Source: Prevotella sp. (GTDB taxonomy: Bacteria; Bacteroidota; Bacteroidia; Bacteroidales; Bacteroidaceae). From it: a stretch of DNA of 35,935 bases. The notes under the pieces were generated by a model. That model made no database searches, was not told where the DNA came from, and saw only the letters and a list, made by a program, of their open reading frames with translations. Position 1 is the stretch's first letter. The number at the start of each line of letters is the position of its first letter. The DNA is taken from contig JAGAWQ010000006.1 in assembly GCA_017941345.1 (NCBI GenBank), positions 1 to 35,935 on the forward strand, read 5' to 3'. Below, piece after piece: positions 7,418 through 35,935 of this stretch. A program made the position numbers and the translations under genes.

Positions 7418-9198
7418 TGAATAATATGAAATGTTTTTTGGCTATTGTGCTGGTTTGTACATTTTGTGGCAGTCAGGCACAGACATTAAAGGATGGCGAG
7501 ATGCCTCAGATGCCGGTGTTTCCGGAGATTCCTGCCCCGCTACCTGTGGGGTCAGTAAAAATGGGCAATAGCGACAGCTTTGCTGACGTACAGCTCGACA
7601 TCCCCATTACCGACGGCCCTTACAAAGCCAGTTGGGCATCAATAGAACAGAACTATCCCGGCACTCCCCAATGGCTGCGTGATGCCAAGTTCGGCATCTG
7701 GGTACATTTCGGTCCGCAAGCCGCTGGAGAGAGTGGCGACTGGTACGCGCGTAATTTATATAAGGAGGGACACAAAGCCTACAAGAACCACCTGAAGCGT
7801 TACGGTCATCCGTCAGAGGTGGGTTATAAGGAGGTGCTGCGTGACTGGAATCCCACGAAGCTCGATCCTGAGTATCTAACGAAACTCTACCAGAAGGCCG
7901 GTGCACGCTTTCTGATGATTCAGGGTGTCCATCACGACAACTATGACCTGTGGAATTCACAGTACCATCCGTGGAACTCGGTGAATATCGGTCCGAAGCG
8001 CGACATTCTGCGTGAGTGGGTCGATGCCTGTCATAAATACAATATGCGCTATGGCGTCACCTTCCACCACGAATATACATGGTGGTGGTGGCAGACGGCT
8101 TTCGGTTCAGACAAATCCGGTGAGAAGGCAGGTGTGCCCTACGACGGTCACCTCACTTTGGCAGACGGCAAAGGCAAGTGGTGGGAAGGATATGACCCGC
8201 GTCTGCTCTATGGCATCGACCTGCGTGAATACGAGACGGTTGAAGAAAAGGCACACTCACCCTGGTCACCCCCAAAGGATGGAATCTTCAGCCGCCATCT
8301 GGATTATTGCAAGTGGTATGCCACGCAGTGGGCCCTCCGTATGATGGACGTGACAGCCAACTATGACCCCGACTTCATCTATACCGATGGCACGGTACAA
8401 GGGCCGTTTACGGGTGACGGCACAGGCACAGGATATAAGTGTAACGCCATGCCGACGGTGATGGCCGACTACTACAACCGCGTGCTGAAGAAGCGCGGCA
8501 AGGTGGATGTCTTCAGCATCATCAAGTTCCGCAAACCCACGAACGGTGCTGTGAACACAGCCGAATTTGACTTCCCCGACACCATCAACGCCTCACAGCC
8601 CTGGATTCGTGAAGCCCCTGTTGGCGACTGGTTCTATGCCCCAGGGTTCACATACGATTCCGGTTCTATGATACGTTTCATCATCGAAGCCATCTGCCGC
8701 GACGGCAATGCGGCACTCAATATCCCCATGTGCCCAGACGGCAGCATTGAAGACGCCTGTGTCACCATGCTCGAAGAGGTAGGCCGTTGGATGGCTGTCA
8801 ATGGCGAAGCCGTCTATGGCAGCAAGGCATGGCACACCCTCGGCGAAGGCGAGATGGTGAATGGCAAACTGAAGAAACTGCCCGGCGGTGGTCTCGGCAA
8901 ACGACAGGCAGATTTTAAGTTTCAAGTTTCAGGTTCCAAGTTTCAGGATATCCGCTTCACCATAGGCAAGGACGGCAGCCTCTATGCCTTCACTATGGCA
9001 GTGCCAGAGGCAGGCAGTCAGGTAACCATCCATAGCCTGAAGAAAGGTCAGGAGAAGGTAAAGGACGTATCACTGTTAGGCAGCGACAGCAAACTAGAAT
9101 GGCACCAGACCCCAGACGGTCTCGTCATCACCTGCCCCAAGAAATTGGACTTCGCCACCTCGTTGGTATTCAAGATAGAGGTTAGAGGTGAGAGGTAA
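7417..9198 (+). CDS. GH29-family alpha-L-fucosidase-like enzyme
   Basis: This 593-aa secreted enzyme has a signal peptide at about 1-21. GH29 hallmarks are WLRDAKFGIWVHFGP (about 88-102), GVHHDNYDLW, NIGPKRDI and FIYTDG with the probable nucleophile Asp324. The tail is a short beta module. The start at 7417 overlaps the upstream stop by one base; a second Met three codons on is an alternative. Two 7-nt-period repeats lie in the 3' part: 8917-8947 encodes the local peptide KFQVSGSKFQ, and 9174-9201 supplies the last codons (EVRGER) and the stop. With its neighbours it probably acts on a fucose- and rhamnose-containing glycan, but substrate specificity cannot be read from sequence. Confidence 0.85.
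   Translation: MNNMKCFLAIVLVCTFCGSQAQTLKDGEMPQMPVFPEIPAPLPVGSVKMGNSDSFADVQLDIPITDGPYKASWASIEQNYPGTPQWLRDAKFGIWVHFGPQAAGESGDWYARNLYKEGHKAYKNHLKRYGHPSEVGYKEVLRDWNPTKLDPEYLTKLYQKAGARFLMIQGVHHDNYDLWNSQYHPWNSVNIGPKRDILREWVDACHKYNMRYGVTFHHEYTWWWWQTAFGSDKSGEKAGVPYDGHLTLADGKGKWWEGYDPRLLYGIDLREYETVEEKAHSPWSPPKDGIFSRHLDYCKWYATQWALRMMDVTANYDPDFIYTDGTVQGPFTGDGTGTGYKCNAMPTVMADYYNRVLKKRGKVDVFSIIKFRKPTNGAVNTAEFDFPDTINASQPWIREAPVGDWFYAPGFTYDSGSMIRFIIEAICRDGNAALNIPMCPDGSIEDACVTMLEEVGRWMAVNGEAVYGSKAWHTLGEGEMVNGKLKKLPGGGLGKRQADFKFQVSGSKFQDIRFTIGKDGSLYAFTMAVPEAGSQVTIHSLKKGQEKVKDVSLLGSDSKLEWHQTPDGLVITCPKKLDFATSLVFKIEVRGER
8917..8947 (+). repeat. Heptamer micro-repeat inside the GH29 gene
   Basis: Four consecutive 7-mers (AAGTTTC, AAGTTTC, AGGTTCC, AAGTTTC) followed by AGG. 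The period is exact. The repeat is read in frame and interrupts the C-terminal module with a KFQVSGS/KFQ pattern. Confidence 0.8.
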
Positions 9199-9545: not shown

Positions 9546-10657
9546 CTATTCTTCAGCCAATGTCCCAACATCTATCCCGTGAGGCTGACCCTCAGTGGTT
9601 TCAGCCTCTTTCTTTTGCTTATCACATGCAGTTTTGTTACGTGTCGGGTCATACTTCTCTCCACTTTTCCAAAGGCTGTATATGAGCAGTAGTAGCTTGC
9701 GCATAGTGGCTGTTACTCCAATCATTTTCGACTGTGTATTCCTGTCACATAGGCGCCCATAGAAATCTTTCATCTGAGGATTACACTGAGTGCTGACAAT
9801 GGCAGGAAATAGAGTGCCGTCCTGATGTGTACGTTGCCCTGCTTTGAGATGTGGCGCTTAGGGTCTACAGGTCCCGACTGATGTGCAGGAACGTCAAGCC
9901 CTGCATATCTGGCTAACTGCTTACGATTTGTTATCAACGCAAAGCCATTAGTCTCTGCAACCACGGTAACTACAGTCATAAACCCTATGCCGTTGATGGT
10001 TGTGATACGGTCAATACGCTCTGACAGTCCGGGCTCCTGCTTGATCTTCTCGCGGATGGCCTTCTGATTACTGTCCAGCTGTTTGTCTATCTCGTTGATA
10101 AGTTTGTTATAGTGCTTGACGATGCTCTTCTCCGCTATCTCGCTGTGTGCGAGTGCCTCCAGATGGTTCCTCAACTGTGTCTTGACCTTGTTGATGTCGG
10201 CCACGAAACGCGTCATCTGTCGCAGTTCCCTATAGATAGGAGATGGCGGTGCCCAAGGTTTGAGGCGCTTGTCCAAACACCCAAGCATCCCAAGAGTATA
10301 GGCATCCATGTCATCGGTCTTTGTGAGGATGCCCTCGTACTTGGCAAACTCACGCGCCTTGTTAGGCAACACAACGCAGACGTCCAGACCGAGTTTGTTC
10401 AGATGAGCCGCCAGCTGCTCGTAATAGACGCCTGTGGGTTCCATTACATAGCGTATCGGATAGCCTTTCAGGGCCTCCTTGCGGCTCCATTTGACGAATT
10501 GGTTGAAACCAGTCTTGTCGTTGTTAAACACTACAGGGGCGGTAGAGCATCCCTGATCGAACTCATACATACACAGGCAGGCCGTGAACGTACCCTTTGC
10601 AATGTCGATTCCCACGCACTGCATAAACCACTTGCCAGGTTCGAAATTCGGTTTCAT
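9546..10657 (-). pseudogene. IS110-family transposase/recombinase, frameshifted
   Basis: The first 284 codons (from 10657) form a DEDD recombinase with Asp18 (VGIDIAKG), Glu73 (VMEPTGVYYEQLAAHL), Asp115/Asp118 (KTDDMDA), and then a C-terminal domain with the candidate catalytic serine Ser261 (AHQSGPVDP). After TALYF the frame breaks. Restoring one C in the CC pair at 9805-9806 (minus-strand reading) gives PAIVSTQCNPQMKDFYGRL, which continues in frame to the stop at 9546. A single-base deletion in a C-run is therefore the lesion, either real or a sequencing error. The start could also be the internal Met12 (MQCVGIDIAK), closer to the usual family start. Confidence 0.88.
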
Positions 10658-17766: not shown

Positions 17767-17862
17767 TCTTGCCCCTTGCTCCTTGCCCCTGATGTTTCGC
17801 TTGCGAAACTTAAATAAATAAGAAAAAACGGGGTTTTATTCTCGTTTGTCTCACTTATTTTG

Positions 17863-26815: not shown

Positions 26816-27774
26816 CTGATTTCCTCCTCTATCTGATAGTCGTTGCGCCCGGCACTATTGCGGCTGATGAGATCGCCCAGGAATCCGGCCAGGAACAGCT
26901 GCGTACCAATCATCATCATCGTCAGGGCGATGTAGAAGTAGGGTGAGTTGGTGACCAGACGCATGGGGATGCCGTTGTAGAGTGCCCATGCCTTCTCAGC
27001 ACCCAGGAAGAAGGCTGCAAGGAAACCTATCATGAACACGATGGTGCCCAGGAATCCGAACACGTGCATGGGCTTCTTGCCAAAGGTGCCCAGGAACCAG
27101 AGCGTCAGCAGGTCGAGATAGCCGTTGACAAAGCGGTTCCAGCCCATGAACTTCGACTTGCCGAACTTGCGGGCTTGATGGTGTACAGGCTTCTCGGCAA
27201 TCTTGTCGAAACCGGCATTCTTGGCCAGATAGGGCATGTAGCGATGCATCTCGCCATACACCTCGATATTCTTCACCACCTCATGGCGATAAGCTTTCAG
27301 TCCGCAGTTGAAGTCGTGCAGGTTCTTGATGCCGCTCACCTTACGTGCGGTAGCGTTGAACAGCTTGGTGGGAATGGTCTTCGACAGGGGGTCGCCCTGC
27401 TTGCGGTTCTGCTTGTAGCCGCTCACCAGGTCGTAGCCGTCTTCCTTAATCATGCGGTACAGCTCGGGAATCTCGTCGGGCGAGTCCTGCAGGTCGGCAT
27501 CCATCGTGATGACCACGTCGCCCAGGGCCTCCTTGAAGCCGCAGTAGAGTGCAGGACTCTTGCCATAGTTGCGACGGAACTTGATGCCCTTCACATGTTC
27601 TGAGCGGGCTGCCAACTCGGTAATCACATCCCACGAATGGTCGGTAGAACCGTCGTTGACGAAGATGACCTCGAAGCTGAACTTGTTGGCCTCCATCACG
27701 CGCTCTATCCACGAGTAGAGTTCGGGCAGCGATTCGTCCTCATTAAAAAGAGGTATAACTACTGATATATCCAT
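26803..27774 (-). CDS. GT2 glycosyltransferase with two C-terminal membrane helices
   Basis: This 323-aa enzyme resembles the DPM1/GtrB/ArnC group. An N-terminal GT-A domain carries VVIPLFNEDESL, FVNDGSTDHSW, ITMDADLQDSP (DxD-like) and DFNCGLKAY. Two transmembrane helices follow at about 232-255 and 268-292. Such enzymes usually transfer a sugar from a nucleotide donor to undecaprenyl phosphate at the inner membrane. The ATG at 27774 directly follows a heptamer repeat block that fills the gap to the upstream gene. Confidence 0.9.
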   Translation of the reverse strand: MDISVVIPLFNEDESLPELYSWIERVMEANKFSFEVIFVNDGSTDHSWDVITELAARSEHVKGIKFRRNYGKSPALYCGFKEALGDVVITMDADLQDSPDEIPELYRMIKEDGYDLVSGYKQNRKQGDPLSKTIPTKLFNATARKVSGIKNLHDFNCGLKAYRHEVVKNIEVYGEMHRYMPYLAKNAGFDKIAEKPVHHQARKFGKSKFMGWNRFVNGYLDLLTLWFLGTFGKKPMHVFGFLGTIVFMIGFLAAFFLGAEKAWALYNGIPMRLVTNSPYFYIALTMMMIGTQLFLAGFLGDLISRNSAGRNDYQIEEEIRCGK

Positions 27775-27815
27775 TAACTTTTATCTTTTAACTCTTAACT
27801 TTTAACTTTCAACTC
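27774..27815 (+). repeat. Six-unit heptamer repeat at the DUF4199/GT2 junction
   Basis: Six 7-mers in phase: TTAACTT, TTATCTT, TTAACTC, TTAACTT, TTAACTT, TCAACTC. The block runs from the last codons and TAA stop of the DUF4199 gene to the ATG of the GT2 gene (minus-strand sense), so it forms the whole 20-nt gap. Confidence 0.9.
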
Positions 27816-28425: not shown

Positions 28426-28445
28426 CAGCCGCTTACGAGCAAAAA

Positions 28446-28541
28446 CGGGCAGTCCTGTACGGCCAGCTCCCTCGGAATCCCCCAGGATGGGAACATAGCA
28501 AGGGTACTTGGTTGTAGCGGCGCGATGCAGATAGCTGCCCA
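28446..28541 (+). ncRNA. ffs: Signal recognition particle RNA (4.5S type)
   Basis: The apical domain is CAGG-ATG-GGAA-CAT-AGCA (28482-28500): a GGAA tetraloop on a short stem, flanked by the conserved CAGG/AGCA internal loop that Ffh recognises. The outer ends GGGCAG (28447-28452) and CTGCCC (28535-28540) pair, giving a rod about 95 nt long, the size of small bacterial SRP RNA. A strong promoter lies upstream and tRNA-Thr begins 4 nt downstream, so they are probably cut from one transcript. Confidence 0.85.
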
Positions 28542-28544
28542 CCC

Positions 28545-28618
28545 GCCTCTTTAGCTCAGTTGGCCAGAGCACGTGATTTGTAATCTCGGGGTCGTTGGTT
28601 CGAATCCGACAAGAGGCT
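28545..28618 (+). tRNA. tRNA-Thr (anticodon TGT)
   Basis: Acceptor strands GCCTCTT (28545-28551) and AAGAGGC pair. The D-arm GCTC/GAGC is present, the anticodon loop is TTTGTAA (anticodon TGT) and the T-arm is GTTGG-TTCGAAT-CCGAC. The anticodon stem has one T-T mismatch. CCA is not encoded. It lies directly after the SRP RNA. Confidence 0.93.
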
Positions 28619-28621
28619 CAG

Positions 28622-28730
28622 AAGAAATGAGAAATGAAAATGAAAGAAATGAGAAATGCTTTATTGGCGTTTCTCATTTTCGATTAACCCATTTCTTTCA
28701 TTCCTTTCATTTCTTTCATTTCTTTCATTC
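28622..28730 (+). repeat. Purine/pyrimidine short-period repeat between tRNA-Thr and mutS2
   Basis: After the tRNA come 7- to 8-nt units (GAGAAAT, GAAAATG, AAAGAAAT). Next to the mutS2 stop come 9-nt units (TTTCTTTCA type). The two blocks are reverse-complementary, with a central 13-bp hairpin, AAATGAGAAATGC (28647-28659) against GCGTTTCTCATTT (28667-28679). It may act as a two-way transcript end between the convergent units. Confidence 0.65.
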
Positions 28731-31400
28731 CTACTCCAAGTCTACGACGGTAATTCCTGCACCACCAAATTGTACATGCTCGTCTTTGGCACGTACCACG
28801 TTGGGTACCGTGTTCAGATATTGACGAATCAGCTGACGCAGGATGCCGGTACCCGTACCATGAAGAATGCGAACACGCGACATACCTACCAGTATGGCAT
28901 CGTCGAGGAAGTGCATCACGGCGTCCAGAGCCTCGTCACCACGCATGCCTCTGACATCTATGTCCTGATGGAAATTCTGCTTCCGGTCTTCTATCGTCGA
29001 GCGTGTCACCTTCGAGGTCTGAATAGCCAAGTGGGCATGCTTATCGGCTGACGACTGAGCCTCAGCCTGCCGCTTTTCCGTTCTTTCCAATTGTTCCAAC
29101 TTTACCTTGCTTCGCAGTCCGCCAAAGATGACCGTCACCTGCTTGCCCTGTATGGCTTCTATCTCGCCGATGCTGCTTGTGCCTTTTATGCGAACGCTGT
29201 CACCCTTTTCCAAAGGACGATTACTATCGTTCAGCACCGCCTTAGCACGTTCTGCCAGTTTCTCGCTAACCGCCTTCTGCTGCTCGTCCTTCTTCTCCTT
29301 CCGCTGGGCTTTGCGCGCCTTGCGTTCCTCCATCTGGCGCAGCTTCTTGGCAAAGTCTTCTTCGCTCATCAAGCCCTGCGTATCTGTCTCAGCCACCTGC
29401 TCACGGAACTGCTGCAGCTCCTCGCGAATCAGTCGTGTCTGCTCCTTTTCAGCCTGAGCCTCACGGATTTCGCGGATGGCATTCTCTATCTTGCGGTTCG
29501 CCTCCTTCAGCAGGTCGTCAGCCTGTTGCTGGGCACGCTTCAGAATCTGCCTGCGCTCACGTTCTATCTCCTCCAGATTGGTCTCATAGCGCTGAATGCT
29601 ACCCTCCAGCGATTTCTCGTGCTGATGAATCGTCTGGCGCTTGCCCTCCCAGTAACGCTTGTCACGAACGATGTCCTGCAGGTATTTGTCGCTTTGGATA
29701 TACTCAGAACCCACGATGTCTGAGGCGTCTTTGATGACCTCCTCGGGAATACCCGTCTTGCGGGCTATCTCGATGGCGAATGAGGAGCCTGGCTGACCGA
29801 TGCTCAGTTGGAACAAGGCCTGCATCTGGTGGCGGTCGTAGAGCATCGCACCATTCACCACACCAGGATGGTCCTCGGCAAAGTGCTTCAGATTCTGATA
29901 GTGGGTCGTGATGACACCGAAGGTCTCTTTCTGCCAGAACTGCTTCAGCACGGCCTCGGCAATAGCGCCGCCGATAGTGGGCTCCGTGCCGCCACCAAAC
30001 TCGTCGATGAGCAGCAGCGTCTTAGCATGGGCCTGCTTCATCATGTTCTTCATGTTCAGCAGATGGCTCGAATAGGTGGACAGGTCATCGGCTATCGACT
30101 GCTCGTCGCCAATATCAATCATGATGTCCTCAAAGAGTCCGCAGGTGGAGCGGTCGCCAACGGGTATCGACAGCCCGCATTGCAGCATATACTGCAGCAG
30201 ACCTACCGTCTTCAGACATACTGACTTGCCGCCCGCATTAGGACCAGAAATGATAAGGAGACGTCGGTCTTGCGTCAGTATGATGTCCAATGGAACGGCT
30301 TTTTTGTCTTGCCGCTCCAACGAACGGCGCAGCAGCGGATGGATGGCACGAATCCAGTCGATGTGGGGCTCTGCCTTCACTTCGGGCTCGAAGGCCTGCA
30401 TCTGCTCAGCCATCTCAGCCTTCGCTTGTATCAGGTCTATCTCCGCCAGGAATTGATACGAGTCGAGCACCTCTTGCACGTGGGGGCGCAACTCGTCAGA
30501 GAACACAGTCAATATGCGGATAATCTCACGACGTTCGGCTGCCTCCAGCTCGCGCACCTTGTTGTTCGCTTCCACCACCTCAGCAGGCTCGATGAATACG
30601 GTCTTTCCTGTAGCCGACTCGTCGTGTACGATGCCGTTAATCTTACGTTTCAGACCTGGTGCTACGGGAATCATCAGTCGTCCGTCGCGCATGGTGGGAG
30701 CCACGTCTTGTGCTACCAGTCCTTCGCGCTGAGCCGAGTGCAATATAGTATATAATGTACGCGAAATCGAACCTGCCGTCTGCTCCATGTCGTGACGGAT
30801 GCCTGCCAGCGTCATCGATGCTGAGTCCTTGATTTTTCCGAATTTATCCAGTATCGAGTCGATACGCCGAATCATGGCAGGAAATGTCAGCACGTCCTCA
30901 GCCAGGCGGTGGAGGGCAGGGTAGGAGAAGGTTGAGGGTTGAGGTAGGAAGGACGATGTGTTCCTACGGAAGTTGGAAGTATCAAGGTCGATGTTGGAAG
31001 TAGACTTCGTACTTTGTACTTCGTCCTTCGACCCCGCTACATCGTCCTTCGTCCTTCCTCCTTCGTCCTTATTAAGAAAATTCACGATTTTCCCAATCGT
31101 CTCCAGCGACCGACGCAAGTCCCATAGCTCGTCCTCCTCCAGATGGGTGTTCTCCAGTCGGATGCGAGCCACCGACTCACGCACGTCGAAGAAATAGTTC
31201 ATCTCAGGCTTTTCCGTGTCCTGCATCAGACGGCGCATCTCTCGCACCTGCTCCAGCCACTCGTTCACCACAGCGGCATCCGTAGAGTAGGCAATCTCGT
31301 CCACTTTCTCCTTGCCCAGCGTGCTCAGACAATAGCCCTTCAGCAGCTGTCGTATCTCGTCAAATCCTATCTTCGATTCAAAGTTCTTTGGATAAATCAT
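28731..31400 (-). CDS. mutS2: MutS2 endonuclease/ATPase
   Basis: The protein is 889 aa from the ATG at 31400. It has an N-terminal core, a MutS-type ATPase with Walker A GPNAGGKS (about 380) and Walker B LLLIDEFGGGTEP, a long Glu/Arg/Gln coiled coil (about 590-720) and a C-terminal Smr domain (DVRGMRGDEALDAV, then LHGTGTGILR). MutS2 acts on recombination intermediates or on collided ribosomes in other bacteria. The longer frame starts at a TTG inside the TACCTTTG promoter box, so 31400 is preferred. Residues about 110-157 are a low-complexity insert (KDEGGRTKDDVAGSKDE) encoded by heptamer repeats and unlike the family. Confidence 0.95.
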   Translation of the reverse strand: MIYPKNFESKIGFDEIRQLLKGYCLSTLGKEKVDEIAYSTDAAVVNEWLEQVREMRRLMQDTEKPEMNYFFDVRESVARIRLENTHLEEDELWDLRRSLETIGKIVNFLNKDEGGRTKDDVAGSKDEVQSTKSTSNIDLDTSNFRRNTSSFLPQPSTFSYPALHRLAEDVLTFPAMIRRIDSILDKFGKIKDSASMTLAGIRHDMEQTAGSISRTLYTILHSAQREGLVAQDVAPTMRDGRLMIPVAPGLKRKINGIVHDESATGKTVFIEPAEVVEANNKVRELEAAERREIIRILTVFSDELRPHVQEVLDSYQFLAEIDLIQAKAEMAEQMQAFEPEVKAEPHIDWIRAIHPLLRRSLERQDKKAVPLDIILTQDRRLLIISGPNAGGKSVCLKTVGLLQYMLQCGLSIPVGDRSTCGLFEDIMIDIGDEQSIADDLSTYSSHLLNMKNMMKQAHAKTLLLIDEFGGGTEPTIGGAIAEAVLKQFWQKETFGVITTHYQNLKHFAEDHPGVVNGAMLYDRHQMQALFQLSIGQPGSSFAIEIARKTGIPEEVIKDASDIVGSEYIQSDKYLQDIVRDKRYWEGKRQTIHQHEKSLEGSIQRYETNLEEIERERRQILKRAQQQADDLLKEANRKIENAIREIREAQAEKEQTRLIREELQQFREQVAETDTQGLMSEEDFAKKLRQMEERKARKAQRKEKKDEQQKAVSEKLAERAKAVLNDSNRPLEKGDSVRIKGTSSIGEIEAIQGKQVTVIFGGLRSKVKLEQLERTEKRQAEAQSSADKHAHLAIQTSKVTRSTIEDRKQNFHQDIDVRGMRGDEALDAVMHFLDDAILVGMSRVRILHGTGTGILRQLIRQYLNTVPNVVRAKDEHVQFGGAGITVVDLE
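30930..31070 (-). repeat. Heptamer repeat blocks forming an in-frame insert in mutS2
   Basis: Plus-strand reading: GGTTGAG twice (30930-30943); CTTCGTA, CTTTGTA, CTTCGTC, CTTCGAC (31005-31032); CGTCCTT, CGTCCTT, CCTCCTT, CGTCCTT (31043-31070). Between them GTTGGAAGTA occurs twice. The insert keeps the reading frame. Confidence 0.85.
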
Positions 31401-32172: not shown

Positions 32173-33816
32173 TTACCACCAGCGGGGGTCGCCAGCGACG
32201 CCTTTTCCCTTGAAAGTGACACCTTCCTTCAGATGGAAGTTCAGATTCTGCGGATCTTCGAACAACTGGTCAGTTGTAAGATCGAGGTGTATGGCGTTGG
32301 TGAACTTACGACTATCCTCGGGGAAGTCGCCGGTCAGGTAACAGCCGGAGAACTCGAGCCAGCCAGAATAGTCCTGATAGCCGTGGTTCATCTTCTGACC
32401 ACCATTGGGACCACAGAAAATACTATTAGTGACAACAGCCTCCTTGGGTGCCCGTTTGTTGTCGGCACGAATCCATTTTTGAAGCTTGGTGGTGTAGTTG
32501 CAGAAGATGCAGCGTTCGAATTTGAACAAATCTATCTGACAACGTAGATCCATCATCTGGTCGCCAATCTCCTTGAGTGTGCTGTTGGTGATACTGATAG
32601 TCTCCATCACACACGAATTCTTACCGATGTTCAACATGCCATAACCACTGGTTCCCACATTATTGATGATGCAATCGTCAATGGAAATCTGTCGGAAGGT
32701 TACTCCATCGTTATTGATATAGAGCAGGGTACGTGGGATGTTGCGAATTTCGCAGCCCTGGAAGCTGAAGAGATCGACACTGTTCTTGTCGGGGTTGAAC
32801 CAATAGGCCTCGCCCATCTTGTCATCCATCACGACAGACTGGAAGCAGATATTACCCTTGTTGCCTGACAGTCTGAGACCCTTGATCATGTTGAGTACCG
32901 GCTTCTGTCCATTGACAACCTTACCAGCGAAGTAGACATTGACAGCATTTTCCGGTATGCGCAATTGGTTCGGGATATCGTATTCCTGACCTCCTGTGAA
33001 GACAAGTGTCACCGTCTCTTCAGTAGCCTCAGTCAGTAAGGTCAGCAGGTCGTCACCAGGATTGACCTCAATGGTCTGACCTACAGCAGAACCGAGTGTA
33101 CGGAACTTCCACGTGCCACGCAGGAACTCACCGTTCAGAATCTGTGCAATATAGTTGGTTCCCGGAGTCAGATCGCTCACCAATGTTTCACCGGCACGTT
33201 GCATATCGGCAGTCAGGTTGACGGTTTGCAGCCAAGTGGTATCCTTCTCCTGTATCTGACCGACTCTCAATGTTGAGACGGTTTTGTCGGCCTCCCATTT
33301 GAAGTTGACATCTGTGATGCCAGGGGTAACAGACGTGAAAATCTGCTCGGCAGGAGTCATAAAGCTCAGACCGAACCATCCAGACTCTGTACCTTTATTC
33401 TCGTTTACAGCCTTGACACGAACTGAGTAGCGGGTAGTGCCATAGAGGTCCTCAAACAATTTCAGATACTCCGTCTGCACAGCCGTCTTTCCAGGGCTAT
33501 AAGGCGTCAGCGTGTCAGCCATCACCTCCTCTGTACGGATAATCTCGGCAAACTGCATACTGTCGAGACTGAACTCAAACACATATTTTGTTGCCTCAAT
33601 AACACCGTTGAACTTCAGCACCACCGATGTAGGATGCGTCTCCTCCAGTTCAAAATGGGTGGTGCGGTAGAGACGTTCATAACTTGGATCTATGGGCCAC
33701 TCGTTGGCATTCTCTGTGCAACTGGCCAAGAGGTAAGAGGTAAGAAGTAAGAGGTAAGAGAATACTTTTACTGCCAGTCTCTTAGCATTACTTTTTTTGT
33801 TTATCTTGGTAATCAT
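32173..33816 (-). CDS. Surface lipoprotein with FN3-like and DUF4957/DUF5123-like beta-helix regions
   Basis: This 547-aa lipoprotein has its lipobox at LLASC (Cys33), followed by TENANEWP. Residues about 45-150 and 155-240 look like fibronectin III-type domains. Residues about 245-547 show the repeated short strands of a right-handed beta-helix (FSFQGCEIRNIPRTLLYI, ISITNSTLKEIG) and the DPRWW-type end seen in DUF4957/DUF5123 proteins of pectin-type PULs. It probably binds glycan at the cell surface next to the SusCD pair. The hydrophobic core of the signal peptide (SYLLLLT, SYLLAS) is encoded by a heptamer repeat. It lies 34 nt after the SusD gene. Confidence 0.8.
   Translation of the reverse strand: MITKINKKSNAKRLAVKVFSYLLLLTSYLLASCTENANEWPIDPSYERLYRTTHFELEETHPTSVVLKFNGVIEATKYVFEFSLDSMQFAEIIRTEEVMADTLTPYSPGKTAVQTEYLKLFEDLYGTTRYSVRVKAVNENKGTESGWFGLSFMTPAEQIFTSVTPGITDVNFKWEADKTVSTLRVGQIQEKDTTWLQTVNLTADMQRAGETLVSDLTPGTNYIAQILNGEFLRGTWKFRTLGSAVGQTIEVNPGDDLLTLLTEATEETVTLVFTGGQEYDIPNQLRIPENAVNVYFAGKVVNGQKPVLNMIKGLRLSGNKGNICFQSVVMDDKMGEAYWFNPDKNSVDLFSFQGCEIRNIPRTLLYINNDGVTFRQISIDDCIINNVGTSGYGMLNIGKNSCVMETISITNSTLKEIGDQMMDLRCQIDLFKFERCIFCNYTTKLQKWIRADNKRAPKEAVVTNSIFCGPNGGQKMNHGYQDYSGWLEFSGCYLTGDFPEDSRKFTNAIHLDLTTDQLFEDPQNLNFHLKEGVTFKGKGVAGDPRWW
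33728..33760 (-). repeat. Heptamer repeat encoding a signal-peptide core
   Basis: Plus-strand units AAGAGGT, AAGAGGT, AAGAAGT, AAGAGGT and AAGAG. In the gene they give the heptapeptide pattern SYLLLLT/SYLLASC, about residues 20-33. Confidence 0.85.
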
Positions 33817-33825
33817 ATTTCTCCA

Positions 33826-33853
33826 TTTTCAATTATCAATTCTCAATTGTTTA
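33826..33853 (+). repeat. Heptamer repeat at the SusD/lipoprotein junction
   Basis: Units TTTTCAA, TTATCAA, TTCTCAA, TTGTTTA. In the leftward gene direction the block begins with the TAA stop of the SusD gene and ends 10 nt before the ATG of the next gene. Confidence 0.82.
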
Positions 33854-35902: not shown

Positions 35903-35935
35903 TTTTCTCTTTTCTCTTTTCACTTTTCACTTTTC
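35903..35935 (+). repeat. Heptamer repeat upstream of the SusD gene (reaches the window edge)
   Basis: Units TTTTCTC, TTTTCTC, TTTTCAC, TTTTCAC and TTTTC. In the gene direction this is a GTGAAAA/GAGAAAA ladder ending 4 nt before the ATG, presumably filling the susC-susD gap. Confidence 0.85.

Follow-up and report, generated by a model that had tools for sequence, protein, structure and literature searches.

The window analysed here, a 35,935-nucleotide stretch of a rumen Prevotella genome, contains nine arrays of period 7 at a score of at least 10, compared with a mean of 0.017 and a maximum of one in 60 third-order Markov windows. There is thus an excess of short tandem arrays among which period 7 predominates, and the letters of the array unit vary between sites and between species. 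We consider it reasonably probable that these are heptameric, sometimes octameric, minisatellites that slip in whole-unit steps, spread by copying from array to array and are kept where their length is harmless. Copy number would change by replication slippage in whole units, with polymerase slippage as the presumed cause of the step of 7, and arrays would also spread within a genome by copying between arrays, presumably through template switching. Retention would be expected where a change in length does no harm, as in operon junctions, gene ends and divergent or convergent spacers, and a few tolerant protein segments would also keep arrays, 21 nt preserving the frame. Where arrays tightly fill an operon junction, the A/G-rich strand is presumably retained as mRNA by selection or by a process linked to transcription; this strand would give an open leader ahead of the next start, and the upstream gene would terminate either just ahead of the array or at the first T-R-A stop that the array presents in frame.

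Arrays were detected with Tandem Repeats Finder and a match/mismatch scan, and gene calls and start positions come from our own hexamer-based caller. The blocks listed by an earlier sequence-only reading of the window are all present where that reading had placed them (Table 1), and the array at 17768-17790, which its list lacks, is the ninth of period 7. Three arrays had been described as filling an operon junction from stop to start. This description is verified for 27774-27815 and 33825-33848, but 35903-35935 is located at the contig end. The arrays at 8913-8947, 30930-31070 and 33728-33760 lie in frame within genes, as judged by eye.

Table 1. Short-period arrays of the window (genes named by Pfam)
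Feature	Position	Strand	Context
Heptamer array, sense AAAAGTT/AAAAGAT/AAGAGTT/GAAAGTT	27774..27815	-	From within the DUF4199 3' end to GT2 ATG; supplies the upstream TAA stop and encodes the last residues, ELKVKS, of the DUF4199 protein
Heptamer array, sense AATTGAG AATTGAT AATTGAA	33825..33848	-	Between SusD-like stop and DUF5123 start
Heptamer array, sense GTGAAAA/GAGAAAA	35903..35935	-	Upstream of SusD-like gene; reaches contig end, far side unreadable
In-frame heptamer array, sense CTCTTAC	33728..33760	-	Encodes FSYLLLLTSYLLASC near DUF5123 protein start
Heptamer arrays, sense GGACGAA-type then pyrimidine-rich blocks	30930..31070	-	In frame within mutS2
Inverted pair of short-period arrays	28623..28730	.	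Purine arm first (28623-28658, near period 7 with indels), pyrimidine arm second (28690-28729, period 9)
Heptamer array TAGAGGT	9176..9198	+	GH29 fucosidase 3' end; contains the gene's own TAA
In-frame heptamer array, DFKFQVSGSKFQ	8913..8947	+	Within GH29 fucosidase gene; frame by eye
Heptamer array CTTGCCC, 3.3 copies	17768..17790	.	Between called genes

A small SRP RNA (RF04183) and a tRNA at window positions 28440-28618 on the plus strand converge with mutS2 on the minus strand, and the inverted array pair between them could serve as a two-way terminator. An IS110-family transposase gene (PF01548, PF02371) at 9770-10657 is found near the 3' array of the fucosidase gene.

Other periods are rare in the window, with one array of period 9 and none of periods 5, 6, 8, 10 or 11. 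A 412-kb sample of the home genome, composed of the window and 20 stretches of which 10 were picked for matches to AACTTTT (the large contigs C163 and C185 were likewise found via that match list), contains 56 arrays of period 7 against zero in one Markov control. The same sample has 6, 9 and 22 arrays of periods 6, 8 and 9, and 47 and 45 at the multiples 14 and 21. Period 7 also ranks first, with 16 arrays, in 20 additional home-genome stretches (197,632 bases; 15 picked by contig number and 5 continuing C163 and C185), where the runner-up is period 9 with 6. A scan of these samples, rather than of the whole genome, therefore finds period 7 outnumbering the other periods, as the sequence-only reading had anticipated. 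Its statement that the period is always 7 fails, given the period-9 arm at 28690-28729 and the period-8 arrays of relatives.

Among named genomes, the nearest relatives belong to Prevotella and Prevotellaceae and many come from rumen, in agreement with Prevotella as the source. Of 151 genomes of the family, 42 match three copies of AACTTTT with at most two mismatches, and the matches range from 0 to 124 per genome; reversing the pattern yields a different heptamer, which other genomes contain in abundance. Of 80 genomes of the phylum, 19 match one AATTGAA pattern, 12 of these only once. Among 38 stretches taken from relatives, 34 were readable and 8 of these have period-7 arrays at a score of 12. 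Tandem repeats of period 22 are also present in relatives (L141, L142, L148, L163 and others), often one per 20-kb stretch.

The arrays are enriched in noncoding DNA. The density of array bases is 4.6-fold higher there than in coding DNA in the less biased home-genome subset (L001-L010 and L121-L140, given separately for this measure), 7.8-fold higher in the whole home-genome sample and 22-fold higher in 80 relatives' loci, these loci, all around one operon, being the 80 top-ranked of at least 591 named matches to a GT2 query. Equal frequency at random positions, which would have counted against the original proposal, is thus not what these samples show. The more specific expectation of enrichment at stop/start junctions is not borne out. 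Period 7 ranks first among the periods in 28 of 266 co-directional regions of the home genome and 50 of 588 in relatives, in 3 of 29 and 2 of 26 convergent regions, and in 1 of 26 and 3 of 11 divergent regions, respectively, such that the co-directional rate is no higher than that of other short intergenic regions. Operon junctions are frequent array sites because such junctions are numerous.

The mutS2 gene of the window has a 50-aa segment that consists largely of heptamers, and 13 aa are found there in 10 of the 22 loci compared by tblastn. In two relatives, L049 and L079, this mutS2 site is likewise occupied by a heptamer array, built from other units and, in L079, short. The protein segment encoded by the array at 33728-33760 reads like the hydrophobic core of a lipoprotein-like signal peptide at the start of the DUF5123 protein.

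Array turnover can be read at orthologous junctions. Among 66 species in which DUF4199 and GT2 genes are adjacent, 21 have arrays at the junction, heptameric in 15 and octameric in 6. Their units include AATGAAG, AGTGAAC, AATTGAA, AGAAGTA, AGTTGAT, AACATTG, AGTTCAA, GTGAAAAA and others, a few of which are common to two species; the unit therefore changes at orthologous junctions. Across the eight junction types represented by at least 30 species, arrays of period 5-11 are found in 72 of 477 instances, related species not being independent rows, and the periods are distributed as 48 of period 7, 16 of period 8, 4 of period 9, 2 of period 10 and one each of periods 6 and 11. Array-bearing junctions are longer (P < 0.05) in 5 of the 7 testable junctions, and the length of the C-terminal tail is little changed. 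Octamer arrays (CGGAATAA, TCGAAACA) are present at the g7-g8 junction in 5 of 34 species (L045, L047, L055, L079 and L084).

Two pairs of sister species differ in array length by whole units. The arrays of L052 and L055 differ by exactly 7 nt, or one unit, and those of L051 and L054 by 35 nt, or five units, amid near-identical flanks. These whole-unit differences form the pattern of slippage and support it as the process of length change, the comparisons being between species rather than within one. Two details fit less simply. The L052 and L055 arrays are identical outside the gap though their flanks carry several substitutions, which neutral slippage does not predict. At the L051/L054 junction a more distant third species, L073, differs by one gap of 14 nt and another of 17 nt, and the 17-nt gap is no multiple of 7. 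Seeding of an array by local sequence was considered and rejected: the unit is nearer to the same junction in other species than to other junctions (51 of 64, P 3e-7), yet no nearer to that junction in array-free species than composition predicts, the same-minus-other distance being -0.233 against -0.177 for permuted units (P 0.18).

The units differ from place to place, as the sequence-only reading had noted, but they do not vary freely, and a few families recur. Its rough purine-strand pattern holds in a refined form, in that 134 species-distinct units align to T-R-A-R-A-R-N with T at 97%, the next R at 87% and the following A at 94%, the remaining positions being looser. This alignment contains 3.74 bits of information over mean composition, against a mean of 2.77 and a maximum of 2.85 in 20 letter-permuted controls that were aligned with fewer restarts. 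The commonest home-genome units are AAAAGTG, AAAAGTT, AATTGAT and AAATGAG.

There is sharing of units within a genome beyond composition. Units are identical after rotation in 53 of 276 pairs of home-genome junctions, where letter-permuted units give a mean of 4.6, and in 30 of 903 pairs of relatives' junctions (2.5 expected on the same null). Within genomes, units match in 37 of 147 pairs whose arrays lie over 600 nt from each other; the null, which takes no account of phylogeny, averages 19.6 and reaches at most 39 (P 0.0012). Arrays called inside genes were left out of these sharing counts. For the 21 close array pairs the match is inverted in 14 and direct in 4. The inverted pairs (n=16, several of them orthologous) include 11 with a clear order, purine-then-pyrimidine in 10, and 5 that are balanced. 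Inverted heptamer arrays whose arms have a common unit are also located between divergent motifs upstream of the DUF4199 gene (L045 894-1010, L051 3841-3960, L066 5216-5330 and others), flanked by TACCTTTG, which we take to be a promoter-like motif.

An 11-nt tag is carried along with one unit family. A GTGAAAA-type array followed by TTTGCTACCGC is found at four unrelated places of the home-genome sample, which account for all four copies of that 11-mer there, and in 5 of the 80 relatives' loci, where a sixth match (L107) has no array. Unit sharing, the common units of inverted pairs and the recurrence of this tag at unrelated places together make some copying between arrays within a genome likely. 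The earlier claim that ordinary copying does not explain the arrays is accordingly half right: slippage is backed by the steps between sister species, but units recur within the genome beyond composition and an array with its 11-nt tag recurs at unrelated places. A stronger version of copying, in which short arrays are actively written in trans among unrelated loci and onto the opposite strand and junctions are repeatedly replaced, appears to us unlikely.

REP and BIME elements are small palindromes dispersed between genes in alternating orientation. The arrays might likewise be arms or remnants of small dispersed palindromic elements moved by an enzyme, a reading that we regard as doubtful. 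In several relatives two array-tag halves face each other across a core of about 27 nt and form a long palindrome. The 38 loci recovered in tag searches include 11 distinct full palindromes of the form array-TTTGCTACCGC-core-GCGGTAGCA, one of which has a predicted fold of -77.5 kcal/mol (z -17), and 11 of the 151 genomes match the string GTGAANNNTTTGCTACCGC, one of them as many as 28 times. The purine-then-pyrimidine order of the inverted pairs is consistent with such elements as well. However, the tag is present on only 4 of the 74 arrays of period 7 or 8 in a 610-kb home-genome sample, and in the home genome only half elements and no full palindromes were seen. In one of the 11 genomes with GTGAANNNTTTGCTACCGC (G025, locus L187) the match lies within a gene and has no array, and no other 9-mer with at least four G/C was found to be common to three home-genome array flanks. 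A Y1 transposase was considered as the mover of the tag and rejected, having matches in 11 of 28 genomes without tracking the tag, and none in G000 (a 60% complete MAG) or in G113, which has 20 tag matches. Length steps of 7 are also not what transposition produces. The tag composites resemble REP/BIME in being dispersed intergenic palindromes, but they have no consistent Y1 transposase and heptamer arrays form their outer stem.

The palindromic composites of L189-L213 (in L189 at about 1459-1530) consist of an array, TTTGCTACCGC, a core of about 27 nt, GCGGTAGCAAA and an inverted array, and on contig G127:C44 the palindrome arms have a direct spacing of 46 nt. Among the 80 relatives' loci, 32 arrays have TGCAAAGGT in their flanks, and one orthologous promoter region accounts for many of these.

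Returning to minisatellites, arrays at tight operon junctions have a preferred orientation relative to the genes. We define a tight junction, by a filter of our own, as one where the array ends at most 30 nt before the start codon and begins at most 40 nt after the stop codon; 28 of 43 co-directional home-genome arrays (period 7 or 8) and 59 of 131 in relatives pass, and many arrays are located outside tight junctions. The purine-rich strand is the sense strand in 27 of the 28 home-genome tight junctions (13 of 13 on plus-strand genes and 14 of 15 on minus-strand genes) and in 48 of the 59 of relatives. This bias is weaker among co-directional arrays that fail the filter (9 of 15 and 47 of 72). 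The upstream stop codon falls within the array in 19 home-genome tight junctions and 0-9 nt ahead of it in the other 9, and 56 of 59 stops of relatives lie in the range -22 to +9. The array thus often supplies the upstream stop and the last residues of the protein. On the downstream side, the array end lies in a range from 3 nt beyond the start codon to 6 nt ahead of it in 16 of 28 home-genome and 35 of 59 relatives' cases; extending the range to 15 nt ahead gives 22 of 28 and 46 of 59, these junctions having been picked by the filter.

The composition of home-genome junction arrays is A 57%, G 18%, T 22% and C 2%, compared with 16.5% C in 82 array-free gaps. Low C was dropped as a hallmark of junctions, since on the purine strand it is 2.3% in home-genome junction arrays and 3.1% in non-junction arrays, and 7.5% and 6.9% in relatives; it is a property of the arrays and gives no evidence for a leader role. 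Nor do we claim an unstructured leader. The predicted fold of the start region is weaker with arrays overall (-2.60 against -5.01, P 7e-6), but the best-sampled junction gives -2.10 against -2.37 and one junction is reversed (-8.70 against -6.65). Hairpins at array edges were dropped as well: among 51 home-genome arrays, 4 have one at the 5' edge and 2 at the 3' edge (1.3 expected), and the corresponding figures for 168 arrays of relatives are 6 and 1 (3.9 expected).

A further reading, which we find quite improbable, is that each unit contributes its T-R-A stop, such that the array halts ribosomes in all frames before the next start and favours reinitiation. Because 7 and 8 are coprime with 3, an array would present stops in all three frames. 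The consensus unit of tight junctions has a stop on the sense strand in 27 of 28 home-genome and 48 of 59 relatives' cases, as opposed to 8 of 28 and 12 of 59 on the antisense strand. Stops in tight junctions are also retained slightly above a base-matched null (pooled 421 against 408.5, sd 5.2, P 0.009; P 0.11 for the home genome and 0.036 for relatives separately), stop positions are less variable than other unit positions (Wilcoxon P 0.038 and 0.020), and 45 of 51 distinct junction units contain a stop, against 40.0 when permuted (P 0.034). However, period-7 units outside junctions are equally stop-rich (84 of 90 against 76.3 permuted), distinct period-8 junction units have no excess (15 of 20 against 15.8), and non-junction arrays, which show no excess of stop retention on the purine strand, have in the home genome a stop excess on the pyrimidine strand also (P 0.032). 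Stops arise largely from the composition of A-rich units with one T.

The distribution of periods decides against three-frame stopping as their source. Periods 7, 8, 9 and 11 occur in the ratio 145:29:17:5 at co-directional sites, and 39:6:3:11 when convergent, divergent and locus-edge noncoding sites are pooled (the neighbouring genes of locus-edge sites being unknown). Period 7 leads in the pooled sites that are not called co-directional and the explanation is thus rejected, with the caveat that period 7, with 8 arrays, does not outnumber period 11, with 11, at convergent, divergent or edge places of the home genome. Period-11 arrays of the home-genome sample are confined to these places, with zero at co-directional sites. 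Translation may act as a filter on the arrays, and nothing here indicates that their period is determined by it. The sense orientation in tight junctions and the slight excess of stops hint at a selected role for arrays at junctions.

Another reading, very improbable in our view, is that an RNA- or DNA-binding protein whose footprint is 7 nt recognises the arrays as runs of binding sites. The regular spacing, the sense strand preference at tight junctions, the common T-R-A-R-A-R core and the Csp heptamer footprint cited in passages of PMC4679880 would suit such a protein, but there are several unit families per genome, orthologous junctions carry different units, and arrays also lie within proteins and beside promoter-like motifs.

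The Prevotella arrays have the traits of heptameric LSSRs or minisatellites, with one unit length far beyond chance and, in two sister pairs, copy change by whole units (7 nt and 35 nt). In 2007 Mrazek reportedly described long simple sequence repeats in which heptanucleotide units are over-represented, and is said to have proposed polymerase slippage. The passages that cite this work (Mrazek 2007, cited in PMC4679880 and PMC4692102) describe an overall heptamer excess attributed to slippage, and Bacteroidetes fall outside the ten top genomes for units of 5-11 nt; these citing passages make no mention of the junction orientation, unit turnover and tags found in Prevotella.

A close known case is that of the TAACTGA direct repeats described in Beggiatoaceae, in some Cyanobacteria and in five Bacteroidetes (MacGregor 2015, PMC4679880). 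According to the sections of that paper describing them, these repeats are like the present arrays in being 7-nt, direct and mostly intergenic with a unit that contains both TAA and TGA; in the main genome they mostly lie several nucleotides or less upstream of start codons, and the corresponding junction is shorter and free of repeats in some related Bacteroidetes. The paper also notes other heptamer repeats beside those of TAACTGA, and S1, Csp or CsrA-like proteins were suggested to bind the TAACTGA repeats. That system is described there as having one fixed unit, with related heptamers rare in the main genome. In contrast, the Prevotella arrays comprise many families, swap units at orthologous junctions and include octamers and in-frame coding arrays, and TAACTGA is not among the commonest home-genome units.

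The GGGAATC and GGGGA(T/C)T heptamer repeats of Xanthomonas and Nostoc (Rehm 2015, PMC4692102) are, in the passages concerned, similar to the present arrays in intergenic excess, inverted pairs and variation of length and sequence at the same genes of two related species. Their consensus is G-rich and quadruplex-forming, whereas the Prevotella arrays are A-rich, C-poor and of several families. Among the matches listed for open-licence literature, no title reports heptamer arrays in Prevotella, and those matching the tag strings are unrelated by title. Heptamer-rich bacterial genomes are already known; new in the present case are a unit that differs among species at orthologous junctions, a T-R-A-R-A-R core of restricted form, the orientation set by genes in tight junctions, the coding arrays and the tagged palindromes.

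These arrays shape protein ends and linkers, supplying stop codons, an apparent signal-peptide core and a MutS2 linker. If arrays were indeed written in trans, transcription would set their orientation, some copied arrays would carry the TTTGCTACCGC tag, and species would possess their own sets of heptamer leaders at the same genes. The frequency of 7-nt units among bacterial repeats has long called for an explanation. The many orthologous sites of this one clade differ in array presence, unit and length, and slippage, copying and selection can therefore be separated in it.
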